Below are positions 59,298-64,000 of a DNA stretch of 64,000 nt, in pieces. The stretch spans positions 300,506-364,505 of the forward strand of contig NZ_MKVJ01000021.1 of the NCBI RefSeq assembly GCF_001898805.1, written 5' to 3'. Each line of letters opens with the position of its first letter. Position 1 is the stretch's first letter. Below the pieces are notes generated by a model. That model was not told the origin of the DNA, did no database searches, and saw only the letters and a program-made list of their open reading frames with translations. The stretch is from Leifsonia sp. 71-9 (lineage in GTDB: Bacteria > Actinomycetota > Actinomycetes > Actinomycetales > Microbacteriaceae). Both the position numbers and the translations under genes were made by a program.

Positions 59298-59660
59298 GGC
59301 GTGCGGGCGCGAGAGCGCCGCGTGGGGTGTGACGTCCTGCGGACATCCACCTTGCCGTGTGAGCGACCGGAATGCATTGCTTCCCCCTCGACAACGCTCG
59401 CCATACGCCGGCCGCGCGGAGTGAGGCGATCCTGGCAGCGGAGGCCCCGCGCGGCGCCCTCGTGCACGGCCCATGGGGAGTCTCAGCGTGGTGAACGCCC
59501 GAGGATGCATAGTACATTCACAAATGAAGAATGGATAGAGCTGGTATTTATCAGAGCGAAAGTCTAGATTATGTGTATCCAATGACGGACACCCCGGCTT
59601 ATAACCCGCTCTGTGCTCCGTACACGGACGAACGAGCGACTTAGTCCATCGGGAGGCACC
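59298..59660. other. Intergenic boundary before the TOMM operon
   Basis: The first about 200 bases are GC-rich like the rest of the window; from about 59505 the sequence is much richer in A and T, which marks the edge of the following cluster. Two 20-codon frames are present: 59507-59569 (start MHSTFTNEEW) and 59582-59644 (start MTDTPAYNPLC), the latter 11 bases after a -10-like TAGATT (59565-59570). Neither has a Shine-Dalgarno. I see no other feature. Confidence 0.5.
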
Positions 59661-60569
59661 ATGAAGACGGCCGTGGAATTCGATCACGTCGACAAGTTCT
59701 TCAGAGATGTGCGTGCGCTCTCGAATGTGGACATCGCAGTTCATCGCGGTGAGGTGCTCGGTCTCTTGGGTGCCAACGGCGCAGGCAAATCCACTTTGCT
59801 CCGGATCATTCAGGGTGTGACGCAACCGACTCGGGGGTCGGTCCGACTGTGGGGGCGCTCGCCCGCGGATCCGCTCGTTCGATTTCAGATCGGGAGTACA
59901 CCGCAGGATGATGCCATCCCTCTGTCGCTGACGACGACCGAGGTGATCGACTACGTGGGCGCCCACTATCCGCGATCACGCCCGACCCGAGAGGTCATCG
60001 CCGAGTTCGGACTGCACGCGCTGGCCAGGCGACGCGTGTCCAGGCTCTCAGGGGGCCAACGGCGGCGCGTAGCCGTCGCCTTGGCATGTGTTGGTCGGCC
60101 TGACCTCCTTCTTCTGGATGAACCGACGACCGGGCTCGACGTGGACGCGCGACACGAAGTGCTCGATCTGATCAAAGCGCAGCGCGCTCCGGATCGAACG
60201 GTGATCGTCACAAGCCACTACCTCGAGGACATCGAAATGCTCGCGTCGAGGATCGTCGTCCTCTCCAACGGGCGCGTGCGATCAGCTGGTCCTCTCTCCG
60301 AATTCATAGGAGAGAGGGCCGGCGCCCGGGTCACGCTGCAGAGTTCCGAACGACACCGCATCGCTGCCCTCCCGGGCGCTGATCGCGTCGTCGAGAAAGG
60401 CCGTCTGTTGGAGATATCCACGCCAACGCCCGATGCATTCCTGGAGGCTCTCTATTCTTCTGGCATTTCGTTTGCGGGATTGACCGTCGAGCGCGGACAT
60501 CTCGAGGACTACATGCTCGAAGTGATACGCGCCGATCGGGGTGCCACGAGCGAGAGGCCGCTTCGATGA
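59661..60569 (+). CDS. ABC transporter ATP-binding protein of the TOMM cluster
   Basis: A 302-residue ATPase with Walker A GANGAGKSTL (about 36), signature RLSGGQRRRVAVAL (about 131), Walker B LLLLDEPTTGLDVD (about 151) and switch His in VTSHYLED. ATG 59661 follows GGGAGG. Its stop overlaps the permease start (ATGA). First gene of a five-gene overlapping operon; it probably drives export of, or immunity to, the modified peptide. Confidence 0.93.
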   Translation: MKTAVEFDHVDKFFRDVRALSNVDIAVHRGEVLGLLGANGAGKSTLLRIIQGVTQPTRGSVRLWGRSPADPLVRFQIGSTPQDDAIPLSLTTTEVIDYVGAHYPRSRPTREVIAEFGLHALARRRVSRLSGGQRRRVAVALACVGRPDLLLLDEPTTGLDVDARHEVLDLIKAQRAPDRTVIVTSHYLEDIEMLASRIVVLSNGRVRSAGPLSEFIGERAGARVTLQSSERHRIAALPGADRVVEKGRLLEISTPTPDAFLEALYSSGISFAGLTVERGHLEDYMLEVIRADRGATSERPLR

Positions 60570-61327
60570 GCCTCGCACATACGGCTCGGCTGAGTTTCGT
60601 CCACGCTCGATTCCAGCTGATCGACCTCCTTCGATCGCCTGCGAGCGTCGGCTTGGGTCTCGGGATGCCGGTCGTCGCCTTCGCCTTCTTCATCGTTCCC
60701 CAGCGGTCGATCGCCGATAACCCGGTCTTTGCAACATCCGCGATGGTCGCCCTGGTTGTTTTCGGAGTGATGGCGAACAGTCTTTTCGGCTTCGCACTCG
60801 AGATCTCACAAACGCGGGAGCGGACGTGGGGCGCCTACCTCAAAGGCCTGCCAGGACCTGTTGCATCGCGGATGGCCGGATACGCGATGTCGACGGGAAT
60901 TCTCGCGCTGCTCTCGGCGGTGCCCGTCGTGTTGCTGGCGTTGGTAGCGACGGCAGCGCACATCGCGTCCGAACGATGGTGGATATTCGTCGCGGTTGTC
61001 GTAGCGACTGCGGCGCCGTTCATGTTCCTCAGTATGGTCATCGGCCATCTCATGTCGTCGCGCACGTCTATCGCCGTCGTGCAAGTGCTGATGCTCGGTC
61101 TCGCCTTCGGCGGTGGGTTGTTTTTGCCTCCCGCTGCATTCCCCCCGTGGCTGGACGTGGTGTCGACGTTCCTTCCTACTCGTCACGCACTCGATCTATC
61201 GATTTGGGCGGCAGAAGGCGGTGGGTTCCCGGTGGCTGCTGCGCTGGGCTGGGGTGTATGGACATTTGCCACGGCAGCGGCAGCTCTGGCCGCCGCACGC
61301 TGGGACCGGACGCATCGGGAGGGGTGA
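60566..61327 (+). CDS. ABC-2 type permease of the TOMM cluster
   Basis: A 253-residue membrane protein with six hydrophobic segments starting near 28 (VGLGLGMPVVAFAFFI) and the ABC-2 pattern of paired helices around residues 100-180 (GGGLFLPPAAFPPWLDVVS). Coupled to the ATPase by ATGA, and followed directly by the next gene's GTG. Confidence 0.9.
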   Translation: MSLAHTARLSFVHARFQLIDLLRSPASVGLGLGMPVVAFAFFIVPQRSIADNPVFATSAMVALVVFGVMANSLFGFALEISQTRERTWGAYLKGLPGPVASRMAGYAMSTGILALLSAVPVVLLALVATAAHIASERWWIFVAVVVATAAPFMFLSMVIGHLMSSRTSIAVVQVLMLGLAFGGGLFLPPAAFPPWLDVVSTFLPTRHALDLSIWAAEGGGFPVAAALGWGVWTFATAAAALAAARWDRTHREG

Positions 61328-62035
61328 GTGAAGTTGAGTTATTGGGGCTCGAGGCTCGAGTTGTTCTCGGATGCTCTGACGAGTGTCCGACTGCAAGACG
61401 CGCAGATTGTCGATCTAGTAGTGCCCGGCAGTGAGCGACCGGTCGAATCGCCTCCGCCGGGTGCTGCGCGAGACGCGCCCACCGTGATCTTGTCGGCACG
61501 ACGGTTCGACATCGCAGACACACGAGGAAGCATCGAGGCGACGATGCTTGGGCATTTCGTCAACAGCATCCTGCTCAGGTGCTCTCCGGTGGATCGGAGC
61601 CTCGAAATCTACCGGTCGTGGGCGGCGCAATCCGGAGTTCTGATGACTGCATTCGATCCGAAAGGCGTCGCATGGCTAGCTGTCGCGGATCTCGTTGAAG
61701 CGATACCTCTCGTAGCCGCCCAGACCGAGTCCCGTCGCGGACAGGCGTTCGACGTCACCGGACCCGAACGTGTGCCAATGGACGTGCTGGCCGAGTCTCT
61801 CTCCTGCGAGCTGGGTTCTCCGGTTGTTGCCGAGACGCTGGACGCGCAGCTATTGCGTGGGCTCCTTGTACGCGGAGGCCTTGAGCAGGCGGTGGCGAAG
61901 TGGCTCGTCTCCCACCAGTTGGAGTCCTCCGACTCCCGACTTCCCGCGACATCTCCGGTGCTCGCCAGCATCCTTGGACGTCAACCGAGCTCGGTCCTTT
62001 CTCGAGACACATCAAAAGGGGTGAAACATGCGTGA
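61328..62035 (+). CDS. NmrA-like protein lacking the dinucleotide loop
   Basis: A 235-residue protein. The C-terminal two thirds resemble NmrA-type NAD(P)-binding proteins: WLAVADLVEAIPLVAAQ, then GQAFDVTGPERVPMDVLAESLSCELGSPV as in FELTGPEALT-type blocks. The N-terminal part (about 1-75) is short and has no GxxGxxG nucleotide loop, so it may be non-catalytic or may serve as a partner protein. The GTG follows the permease stop directly; its end overlaps the next gene by 8 bases. Recognition is tentative. Confidence 0.5.
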   Translation: MKLSYWGSRLELFSDALTSVRLQDAQIVDLVVPGSERPVESPPPGAARDAPTVILSARRFDIADTRGSIEATMLGHFVNSILLRCSPVDRSLEIYRSWAAQSGVLMTAFDPKGVAWLAVADLVEAIPLVAAQTESRRGQAFDVTGPERVPMDVLAESLSCELGSPVVAETLDAQLLRGLLVRGGLEQAVAKWLVSHQLESSDSRLPATSPVLASILGRQPSSVLSRDTSKGVKHA

Positions 62036-63026
62036 ACAGTTGCGTTATTCGATAGCGCCGCAGATCCATCTCGGCGTCGCACCCGACGTTGTCTTCGCTT
62101 TCGATTCTGAATCGGCCACACGCGTGGCTGCGCCAGGGATTGTGCCCTTCGTGTCGGGGCTGAACGAATCCCTGACGAGTGCGTCCGAAGGACTCGAACT
62201 ACACGAAATCGCCAGCCGCCTCGGTGCGTCCGTGGATCAGGTGGAACCGATACTCGATCGCCTGGTGGACTTGAAGATGCTGGTGCGCCACACGGCGAAG
62301 GTCTCCACATTCGCCAAGCTCGCTGAGGCCAGTGCCGGCGGACAGCTCGCGGCGCACGAAATTCAGGCGAACATCGACACTTGCCGCGTGGGGATGAAAG
62401 CACCCGAAGGTTCGCTGTTGTCCCAAGCTATCGCCACGTCGCTCGTAGGATTAGGAATCGCCGTCGGTGAGCCTGACGATGCGGACTTCGTCATCGTCAT
62501 CGGTGAGTCGCTGATCGATCCGACTCTGTTCGACTTCAACCGAAGGGCGCTGGAAGCCGAGGGCGCGCCGTGGCTCGCTGTGGCCCCATTCGACGGCGGA
62601 AATGCGTGGGTGGGTCCTTTTCATATTCCGAAGCGCTCAGCGTGTTACACCTGCTTTCGGTTGAGGCGATCCGCGAACTTCCCGGACGAGAAGGTTCGCG
62701 ATGAACTTCTCGAACTCAGGGGGCTGACCACCGGTCCCACTGTCGTGGCCGAGCACCCGATTTCGCTTGTCCAAGCGGGAGTGGCTGCGAACCTCGTGAG
62801 CGAATGGGTAGCGCTGCGACAGTATGCGCCGTCTGCCGCGCCCGGAGCCTTGACGACCATCAGCTTGGATGGCTCGGGCATTTCCATGCGGTGGCATCGA
62901 ACACTTCGAGTTCCTCGCTGCCCGGATTGCTCAACAGCAGCCGAGGTGGGCATGCCACAGACCTGGTTCCACGACGAGGCCGGAATTTCGAGCGCTGAGA
63001 GATCAGCCGAGGTGCCTGATGAATAG
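62028..63026 (+). CDS. TOMM precursor leader-peptide-binding protein (ThiF-like, Ocin type)
   Basis: A 332-residue protein like the 'Ocin-ThiF-like' / C-subunit of azoline cyclodehydratases, which holds the precursor's leader peptide. An N-terminal RRE-like winged helix (about 40-90; LHEIASRLGASVDQVEPILDRL) is followed by a ThiF-like fold. Four zinc cysteines are visible as ACYTCFRLRR (about 206) and PRCPDCST (about 303). It uses rare codons for this genome (TTA at 62451, ATA at 62049). It overlaps the genes on both sides. Confidence 0.85.
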   Translation: MREQLRYSIAPQIHLGVAPDVVFAFDSESATRVAAPGIVPFVSGLNESLTSASEGLELHEIASRLGASVDQVEPILDRLVDLKMLVRHTAKVSTFAKLAEASAGGQLAAHEIQANIDTCRVGMKAPEGSLLSQAIATSLVGLGIAVGEPDDADFVIVIGESLIDPTLFDFNRRALEAEGAPWLAVAPFDGGNAWVGPFHIPKRSACYTCFRLRRSANFPDEKVRDELLELRGLTTGPTVVAEHPISLVQAGVAANLVSEWVALRQYAPSAAPGALTTISLDGSGISMRWHRTLRVPRCPDCSTAAEVGMPQTWFHDEAGISSAERSAEVPDE

Positions 63027-64000
63027 CTGGACCAGCGAGGCCGATGCGGCGCGAATCCTGGAGCAATTCGTCAGTCCGTTCGTCGGCGTCGTGGGACGGG
63101 AATATGAACGCTTGAACGATGTCGATGACGTTCGCGGCTTTTCGTACGGCTGTCACTCCACCGATGCGCGACGACTCCTCGGCTCGCAAGCGAATCTCTA
63201 CAACGGGGGAGGGAGCAGGAGCCGCCAGGCAGCCCGACTCGCAGGCATTGGCGAGACTGTCGAACGGTACAGTGCCGCGTATCTTCCCCCCGCTGCCGCT
63301 GCCGCTGCCGCTGCCGATGACCACATGTCGATTCGTGCAAGCCGTCGCGAGATGTTGGAGGCGGATCGCCTGGTGTGGGGTCCCGAGGAGTTGGAGCTCT
63401 TCGCTGAGCAGCAATACGAGGACGCGAGTTTCCCCTTTCATCGACTCACCCACGACGTCTCGATCCGGTGGAGACGAGGGAGGGAGGTCGCGAGCGATCA
63501 GGAGATCTGGGTCCCAGCACAACTGCTTCACTTCGTCGATGCATGGCCGGACGAGCCGCGCATCGGCTACGTGACGAGCAACGGCCTCGCCTGCGGCATC
63601 CAATTCGTTGAGGCCCAATTGTCGGGACTCTTCGAAGCCATCGAGCGTGACGCCTTCATGCTCGTCTGGTACAACCGGCTGAGCCTGCCCCACCTTGATA
63701 TCGAAAGCGATCCGCGGTTGGCGCGACTCGTGGAACGTCACATCGGACCGACTGGACTTGATCTGCATCTCATTGATCTATCCGGACTCTCTGGGGTGCC
63801 CACCGTGCTGGCTGTCGTCCGCAATCTGCACTCCGACGTGGCACCGTTGGCGCTGGGCGCGGCCTCCGCGGCGACCGCCGAACGGGCGGCGGAGAAGGCC
63901 GCCTTCGAGGGCCTTCATACTCGAACATGGATGAATCCGAGCAGCGCGCAGGCAACACGCTCCATAGCGAAGACTGGAACGTCGACATTCGGTCATTTGA
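63019..64000 (+). CDS. YcaO-domain cyclodehydratase (partial, runs off window)
   Basis: The frame is open from ATG 63019 to the window end (327 codons, no stop). YcaO ATP-binding signatures: GGGSRSRQAARLAGIGETVERYSAA (shown as pattern; Gly-rich entry and E..ER Mg ligands, about 75-95), GLACGIQFVEAQLSGLFEAIERDAF (about 195) and AERAAEKAAFEGLH (about 295). YcaO enzymes turn Cys/Ser/Thr of a precursor into azolines using ATP, working with the leader-binding protein encoded upstream. A poly-Ala stretch (about 98-105) from a 6-bp repeat is unusual. Confidence 0.9.
   Translation, partial: MNSWTSEADAARILEQFVSPFVGVVGREYERLNDVDDVRGFSYGCHSTDARRLLGSQANLYNGGGSRSRQAARLAGIGETVERYSAAYLPPAAAAAAAADDHMSIRASRREMLEADRLVWGPEELELFAEQQYEDASFPFHRLTHDVSIRWRRGREVASDQEIWVPAQLLHFVDAWPDEPRIGYVTSNGLACGIQFVEAQLSGLFEAIERDAFMLVWYNRLSLPHLDIESDPRLARLVERHIGPTGLDLHLIDLSGLSGVPTVLAVVRNLHSDVAPLALGAASAATAERAAEKAAFEGLHTRTWMNPSSAQATRSIAKTGTSTFGHL
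63292..63315 (+). repeat. (GCTGCC)x4 repeat in the YcaO gene
   Basis: Four exact hexamers encode eight alanines inside the YcaO frame; changes in copy number would keep the frame. Confidence 0.85.

Follow-up and report, generated by a model that had tools for sequence, protein, structure and literature searches.

Gene clusters for plantazolicin, a linear azol(in)e-containing peptide, are known from Bacillus velezensis/amyloliquefaciens FZB42 and B. safensis, and the published list of the Bacillus genes follows their actual order in the cluster. As named in the cluster description of PMC7617318, these genes encode a DUF3800 protein, a regulator, ATP-binding cassette (ABC) transporters, the precursor, a maturation protein, a leader-binding protein, the synthase D, a dehydrogenase, a metalloprotease and a methyltransferase. 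The relevant part of PMC5100339 describes a precursor of 41 amino acids with a 14-residue core, ring formation by PznBCD, leader removal by PznE and dimethylation by PznL. Plantazolicin clusters have already been published for Clavibacter, Brevibacterium and Corynebacterium (PMC4603692), and in 10 of the 13 clusters treated there the core consists of Arg, five heterocyclisable residues, two non-polar residues and five to six heterocyclisable residues. Here we analysed a window of 64,000 nucleotides from Leifsonia sp. 71-9 (bases 300506-364505 of contig C21 of G000, a genome of 4.48 Mb in 24 contigs), which, together with the sequence just past its end, almost certainly holds a plantazolicin-family operon that a Leifsonia-group actinobacterium acquired as an island. 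The novelty is the presence of such a cluster in Leifsonia, the family itself being already known; no plantazolicin-type cluster reported for this genus was found in the literature searched, which comprised open-licence papers.

The operon and its precursor peptide

The operon comprises nine genes in the order ATPase-permease-J-C-D-B-E-L-precursor A. Five of them start in the window and the remainder reaches 2.9 kb beyond its end; the family identity follows from the genes that lie there, namely a SagB-type dehydrogenase (B), an Rce1-type protease (E), a methyltransferase (L) and a 43-residue precursor (A). Gene A encodes MTVTIPPVEKLTVSVHGEGSFLFEPTAARCSCTTIACCCCSWG, which scores 61.5 bits (cut-off 45, E 5.1e-17) against the NCBIfam model TIGR04218, that of the plantazolicin family of thiazole/oxazole-modified microcin (TOMM) peptides. 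Its core, RCSCTTIACCCCSWG, has the layout R-CSCTT-IA-CCCCS-WG and fits the pattern described in PMC4603692, with Arg followed by five heterocyclisable, two non-polar and five heterocyclisable residues. The nearest entries in the PDB to methyltransferase L are BamL (5.1e-29 over residues 18-270) and BpumL (2.8e-25), and the first match beyond these enzymes stands at 3.4e-9; six rows lie above this drop, two of them titled just "Methyltransferase domain family" and the rest being plantazolicin enzymes. By sequence, L is probably a plantazolicin-type N-terminal Arg methyltransferase. Matches to it were present in 177 of 398 genomes of the bacterial family to which the strain belongs; after its own, the best was in genome G350 (1.9e-30), followed by matches at 2.2e-13 and weaker, which we take to be general methyltransferases. 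A search of L against plasmids gave no match.

Proteins C and B pass the cut-offs of TOMM models, and D matches a TOMM model in two parts lying in separate frames. An initial annotation of the window had called C a "ThiF-like" leader-binding protein; the label "ThiF-like" has its basis in the TOMM C-protein models TIGR03882 and TIGR03603, and no ThiF domain was matched in Pfam. For the YcaO protein D, the best model for both parts is the TOMM SagD family TIGR03604, against which they score 200.2 and 84.8 bits (the cut-off of 219.25 applies to the whole protein), and the C-terminus is PHPFP. On these grounds we rejected a grouping with RimO-type YcaO enzymes, which the initial annotation had raised as an argument against its own view of the cluster. 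An Ala8 stretch in D (window 63292-63315), coded by four GCTGCC repeats, has no counterpart in the four relatives in the alignment.

The features of the locus are listed below; coordinates beyond the window are given on L003, where the window position equals the L003 position + 58994.

59541..59570, + strand: candidate promoter-like element, CTGGTA-18 bp-TAGATT, recognised by inspecting the sequence and alignments
59661..60569, + strand: ABC transporter ATPase, putative exporter (PF00005, 107 bits)
60566..61327, + strand: ABC-2 permease, putative exporter (PF01061, 34.9 bits, cut-off 26.9)
61328..62035, + strand: J, NmrA-like, without a recognisable nucleotide-binding half (profile match over the second half)
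62028..63026, + strand: C, predicted TOMM leader-peptide-binding protein (TIGR03882, 64.3 bits, cut-off 36.9)
63019..64000, continuing past the window end to L003:5385, + strand: D, YcaO cyclodehydratase, frame-broken (PF02624, 177.5 bits)
L003:5407-6225: B, SagB-type dehydrogenase (TIGR03605, 120 bits, cut-off 78.4)
L003:6222-6872: E, Rce1/CAAX-type membrane protease (PF02517, 23.7 bits, cut-off 22.4)
L003:6869-7756: L, predicted plantazolicin-type S-adenosylmethionine (SAM) methyltransferase (BamL match as above)
L003:7731-7862 (C21:367230-367361): A, 43-residue precursor (TIGR04218 match as above)
L003:7877-7912: terminator-like hairpin without a T-run (a 63-base stretch 3' of the precursor gene folds at -32.8 kcal/mol)

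Open reading frame positions and Pfam/NCBIfam matches bear out the five genes that the initial annotation had placed in the window, and its view of them as one operon and one pathway, with a YcaO and a leader-binding C of the azol(in)e-peptide kind and an ABC exporter, is supported. It had joined them all by ATGA and 8-base overlaps. Such overlaps exist between ATPase and permease (4 bases), J and C (8) and C and YcaO (8), but permease and J merely abut. The precursor, SagB dehydrogenase and peptidase that it expected past 64000 were all found just beyond the window end when the sequence was extended, and what had seemed unknown about the cluster was an effect of where the window stops. There, gene A overlaps the 3' end of L, and a purine-rich stretch precedes its ATG. 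Candidate leader-protease and ABC-exporter families are present in the cluster over their cut-offs (PF02517, PF00005, PF01061). The promoter-like element has a counterpart, TTGGCA-18 bp-TACATT, recognised by eye in Leifsonia aquatica H1aii.

Protein J appears to be a conserved accessory protein, to which we assign no role. The window protein had no match in Pfam, and no curated family exceeded its cut-off in the Pfam and NCBIfam scans. Over its positions 101-228, a 3-sequence profile of J matched two NmrA-type oxidoreductases, YtfG (E 1.2e-7) and triphenylmethane reductase (2.3e-5), but the first half, the place expected for the nucleotide-binding part, gave no match with them, so that the earlier label "NmrA-like" holds for the second half of J only. 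The AlphaFold2 model built from two sequences has a mean predicted local distance difference test score (pLDDT) of 41.9, and no report of a "pznJ" with plantazolicin was found in the literature.

The roles given in the part of PMC5100339 cited above may be carried over to the window proteins by homology. The sequence shows gene content, gene order, family assignments and a conserved core pattern, while chemistry, export and antibacterial action are predicted by analogy with plantazolicin. C would bind the leader of the 43-residue precursor, and the YcaO protein, acting with C, would convert the Cys, Ser and Thr residues in the core to azolines, which the flavin mononucleotide (FMN) dehydrogenase B would oxidise to azoles, for a maximum of ten rings. 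Cleavage ahead of the core Arg would fall to the membrane protease E; L would then dimethylate the Arg so exposed, and export of the product would be by the ABC pair. With ten rings, nine of them oxidised, and dimethylation, the predicted [M+H]+ is 1426.34; the same mass formula gives 1336.48 for plantazolicin A. The mass stated for plantazolicin A in the text of PMC7617318 is 1,336 Da. The precursor family was rare in the samples searched, with up to 17 candidates scored in each genome: the TIGR04218 cut-off was exceeded in at least 2 of 398 genomes of the same bacterial family (its own and G350, with G314 below the cut-off) and in at least 1 of 396 genomes of a phylum sample (its own, with a weak match in G650).

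Related clusters and their core peptides

The cores of Bacillus plantazolicin and of the Leifsonia precursor both contain ten heterocyclisable residues, but the second half of the latter, Cys4-Ser-Trp-Gly, is unlike the Bacillus core. From the transporters on, the Bacillus cluster as described in PMC7617318 has the same parts in the same listed sequence, except for the precursor, which is listed after the transporters and in Leifsonia stands at the 3' end after L.

The genome collection was scanned with the C-protein alignment, limited to two peptide patterns, which gave 5 loci from 32 stretches; the precursor search in the stretches of the relatives took in open frames of up to 200 codons. 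Arthrobacter sp. H35-MC1 (L031) shows the same operon order, with precursor genes directly after L, and its B, D (N-terminal part) and C are 68%, 60% and 50% identical to those of the window. It differs in having two precursors with Ser/Thr-rich cores, RCTTTTLISTTCTWA and RCTTTTLISTTSCWG, and a single-frame YcaO. G350 (L028), from the same bacterial family as the Leifsonia strain, also keeps the order ATPase-permease-J-C-D-B-E-L, with a B protein of 62% identity and a precursor over the TIGR04218 cut-off. However, its precursor gene lies divergently upstream, its core is RCTCSTVISTTCTWG and its YcaO is broken elsewhere. Identity to the equivalents in these two genomes is 44% for the ATPase, 49-59% for the permease and 39-41% for J. 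Trees of B and C, of six and seven rows without Bacillus, group the window, Arthrobacter and G350 proteins with support of 96/99 and 99/98.

Brevibacterium aurantiacum ATCC 9175, two Rhodococcus and a Corynebacterium tuberculostearicum plasmid also have C, D, B, L and a precursor, but in another gene order and with C, D, B and L just 28-46% identical to those of the window. J was not found in these cluster stretches at E values up to 1e-3. The plasmid (NZ_CP073097.1, L029) is typed mobilizable, and its plantazolicin-like cluster holds a precursor-like frame ending RCSCSSSTCCVLCVKK that is absent from the (incomplete) gene table. "Corynazolicin" genes are mentioned for other B. aurantiacum strains in PMC6579920, and we take them to be of the same kind as the Brevibacterium cluster.

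Over 15 positions, counted by eye, the Leifsonia core is identical to that of B. aurantiacum ATCC 9175, RCSCTTLPCCCCSGG, at 12, to that of G350 at 7 and to each Arthrobacter core at 6, whereas the enzymes are nearer to Arthrobacter and G350 than to Brevibacterium (B identity 62-68% vs 45%). The window, G350 and Arthrobacter precursors share a leader motif, [HY]G-x(4)-LFEP, and end in Trp-Gly (Trp-Ala in one Arthrobacter copy), and Cys4 cores are also present in the Brevibacterium and Rhodococcus relatives. A tetra-cysteine core sits on an operon whose nearest enzyme relatives have Ser/Thr-rich cores, which is unusual for this enzyme lineage. The pattern is compatible both with core exchange and with an old Cys4 core having been retained, and the combination allows a test of how far one enzyme set tolerates different cores.

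The insertion site in Leifsonia

The cluster is flanked by hutH-iclR on one side and htrA on the other. The guanine-plus-cytosine (GC) content of its genes is 59-63%, and 66-75% at third positions, in a window of 71% overall; the corresponding values are 71-72% and 96% for the GH92 and UvrA-like neighbours, 78% and 96% for the iclR part and 74% and 84% for the frame-broken htrA. The site is empty in 13 of the 27 remaining genus genomes, where iclR and htrA stand next to each other with 10-248 bp between the match ends and hutH beyond. Another 13 are uninformative on the site, their best htrA match having no iclR within ~1.5 kb, and the 27th is L. aquatica H1aii (G002). The cluster is a low-GC insertion, an island whose state differs among members of the genus. 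The C protein was matched in 3 of the 28 genus genomes, namely its own, H1aii and G016 (a weak match, 29% identity, one internal stop), and YcaO matches occur in G010, G022 and G026.

At the cluster site, H1aii (contig C24) carries a lone intact C gene (L005:1495-2496) whose product of 333 residues is 68-69% identical to the window C and keeps four paired cysteines. Upstream of it, the 5' end of the operon and about the first 19 ATPase codons are alignable with a score of 37, which none of 989 control pieces reached (best control 31); at the protein level the ATPase remnant is weak (E 0.04). No YcaO match was found anywhere in the H1aii genome. The pairwise ratio of nonsynonymous to synonymous substitution rates (dN/dS) between the window and H1aii is 0.23 for C, 0.07 for iclR and 0.15 for the htrA part. 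Since the dS of C is above that of the flanks (1.0 vs 0.55 and 0.47) and the lone C differs in GC content (69% vs 61% for the window C), the two copies may have adjusted to their hosts at different rates or arrived separately. The branch of the H1aii C in the tree is twice as long as that of the window C (0.31 and 0.15). In our reading the H1aii gene is still constrained, though less strongly, with the reservation that some of the pairwise signal comes from the window lineage.

Empty, full and C-only states at one locus in one genus record the gain and loss of a cluster for a ribosomally synthesised and post-translationally modified peptide (RiPP). It seems rather unlikely that both an operon of the Ser/Thr lineage, with enzymes, leader and Trp-Gly end of the Arthrobacter/G350 type, was re-targeted to a Brevibacterium/Rhodococcus-like Cys4 core by exchange of about 15 codons and the H1aii C alone was kept under constraint after the loss of all enzymes. 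If this were true, the retention of C would imply that it has a further function, such as self-protection by binding.

Frame breaks and alternative explanations

The frame of D is broken near window 63,935 (63,933-63,939), with TIGR03604 positions 1-240 and 242-377 in two frames; the out-of-frame reading runs on to 64056 and the true C-terminal part is in another frame, a change that the initial annotation could not see. As the sequence 3' of the break is conserved to the last residue of PHPFP, the break would be either recent or a sequencing error. YcaO is in a single frame in the Arthrobacter, Brevibacterium, Rhodococcus and Corynebacterium relatives, and the break of G350 is its own, at a different place and in a run of seven C (L028, - strand, ~10,920). 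The htrA gene is likewise split in two frames (G000:C21:367483-368707, L003:7984-9208, - strand), with its break near window-equivalent 67,760, 3.8 kb from that of YcaO, and the 13 congeners with an empty site each show one unbroken htrA match. As a control for frame breaks, stop-to-stop frames were taken from the 89.8-kb H1aii contig, with a minimum of 150 codons, and matched at 60% identity or more, spanning the matching parts of the ~99-kb stretch of the strain itself, whose parts without a counterpart fall outside. Two-frame matches were seen in nine rows. On visual inspection we judged only the htrA row to reflect a real gene that is split, and the remaining eight to be antisense frames, frames that overlap or separate pieces.

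Several observations weigh against a plantazolicin-family operon. L is just 34-39% identical to its G350 and Arthrobacter counterparts, the Bacillus pzn proteins were represented in the comparisons by the PDB methyltransferases alone, E just exceeds its Pfam cut-off and matches no NCBIfam model, and the operon has neither the regulator nor the DUF3800 immunity gene that the cluster description of PMC7617318 names for Bacillus. In addition htrA is split, and YcaO is frame-broken, so that its present function is uncertain. The initial annotation had gone further, treating the cluster as unassigned and proposing a new product class. A class unrelated to known TOMMs would suit the placement of J in no curated family over cut-off and a core with a Cys4 patch and a Trp-Gly end. 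However, the precursor exceeds the TIGR04218 cut-off, L is nearest to BamL and BpumL, the gene order is common to relatives and Cys4 cores occur in Brevibacterium and Rhodococcus too. We therefore rejected this proposal as extremely improbable: in precursor, L, the gene set described in PMC7617318 and the core pattern of PMC4603692, the extended locus closely matches a known TOMM family.

Within a plantazolicin-family operon, the pathway works only if the YcaO break is a sequencing error; otherwise it was very recently lost. It is quite possible, if somewhat short of an even chance, that the break is a real mutation in a decaying or dead island and that the strain no longer makes the product. 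No intact YcaO exists in the three copies or remnants found in the bacterial family (the window with its break, G350 with another, H1aii with C only), and the H1aii remnant occupies the same site as the window cluster. Yet YcaO is conserved to its last residue past the break, the precursor, B and L are open, and the G350 break falls in a homopolymer, the usual site of errors. The second break in the nearby htrA, with no other split gene judged real in ~99 kb, makes a local sequencing problem equally possible. Conservation of both parts of YcaO, together with an ATG of the second frame where the two meet, would fit a protein produced by programmed -1 frameshifting or reassembled from two separate chains. 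This we consider very unlikely, because by eye there is no slippery heptamer around the break and no ribosome-binding site before the junction ATG, and because the relatives in four genera have a single frame and G350 is broken elsewhere.

Past the window, L003:9556-16623 holds an open frame of 2355 amino acids with GH92, three CBM6, fn3 and PAP2-superfamily domains.

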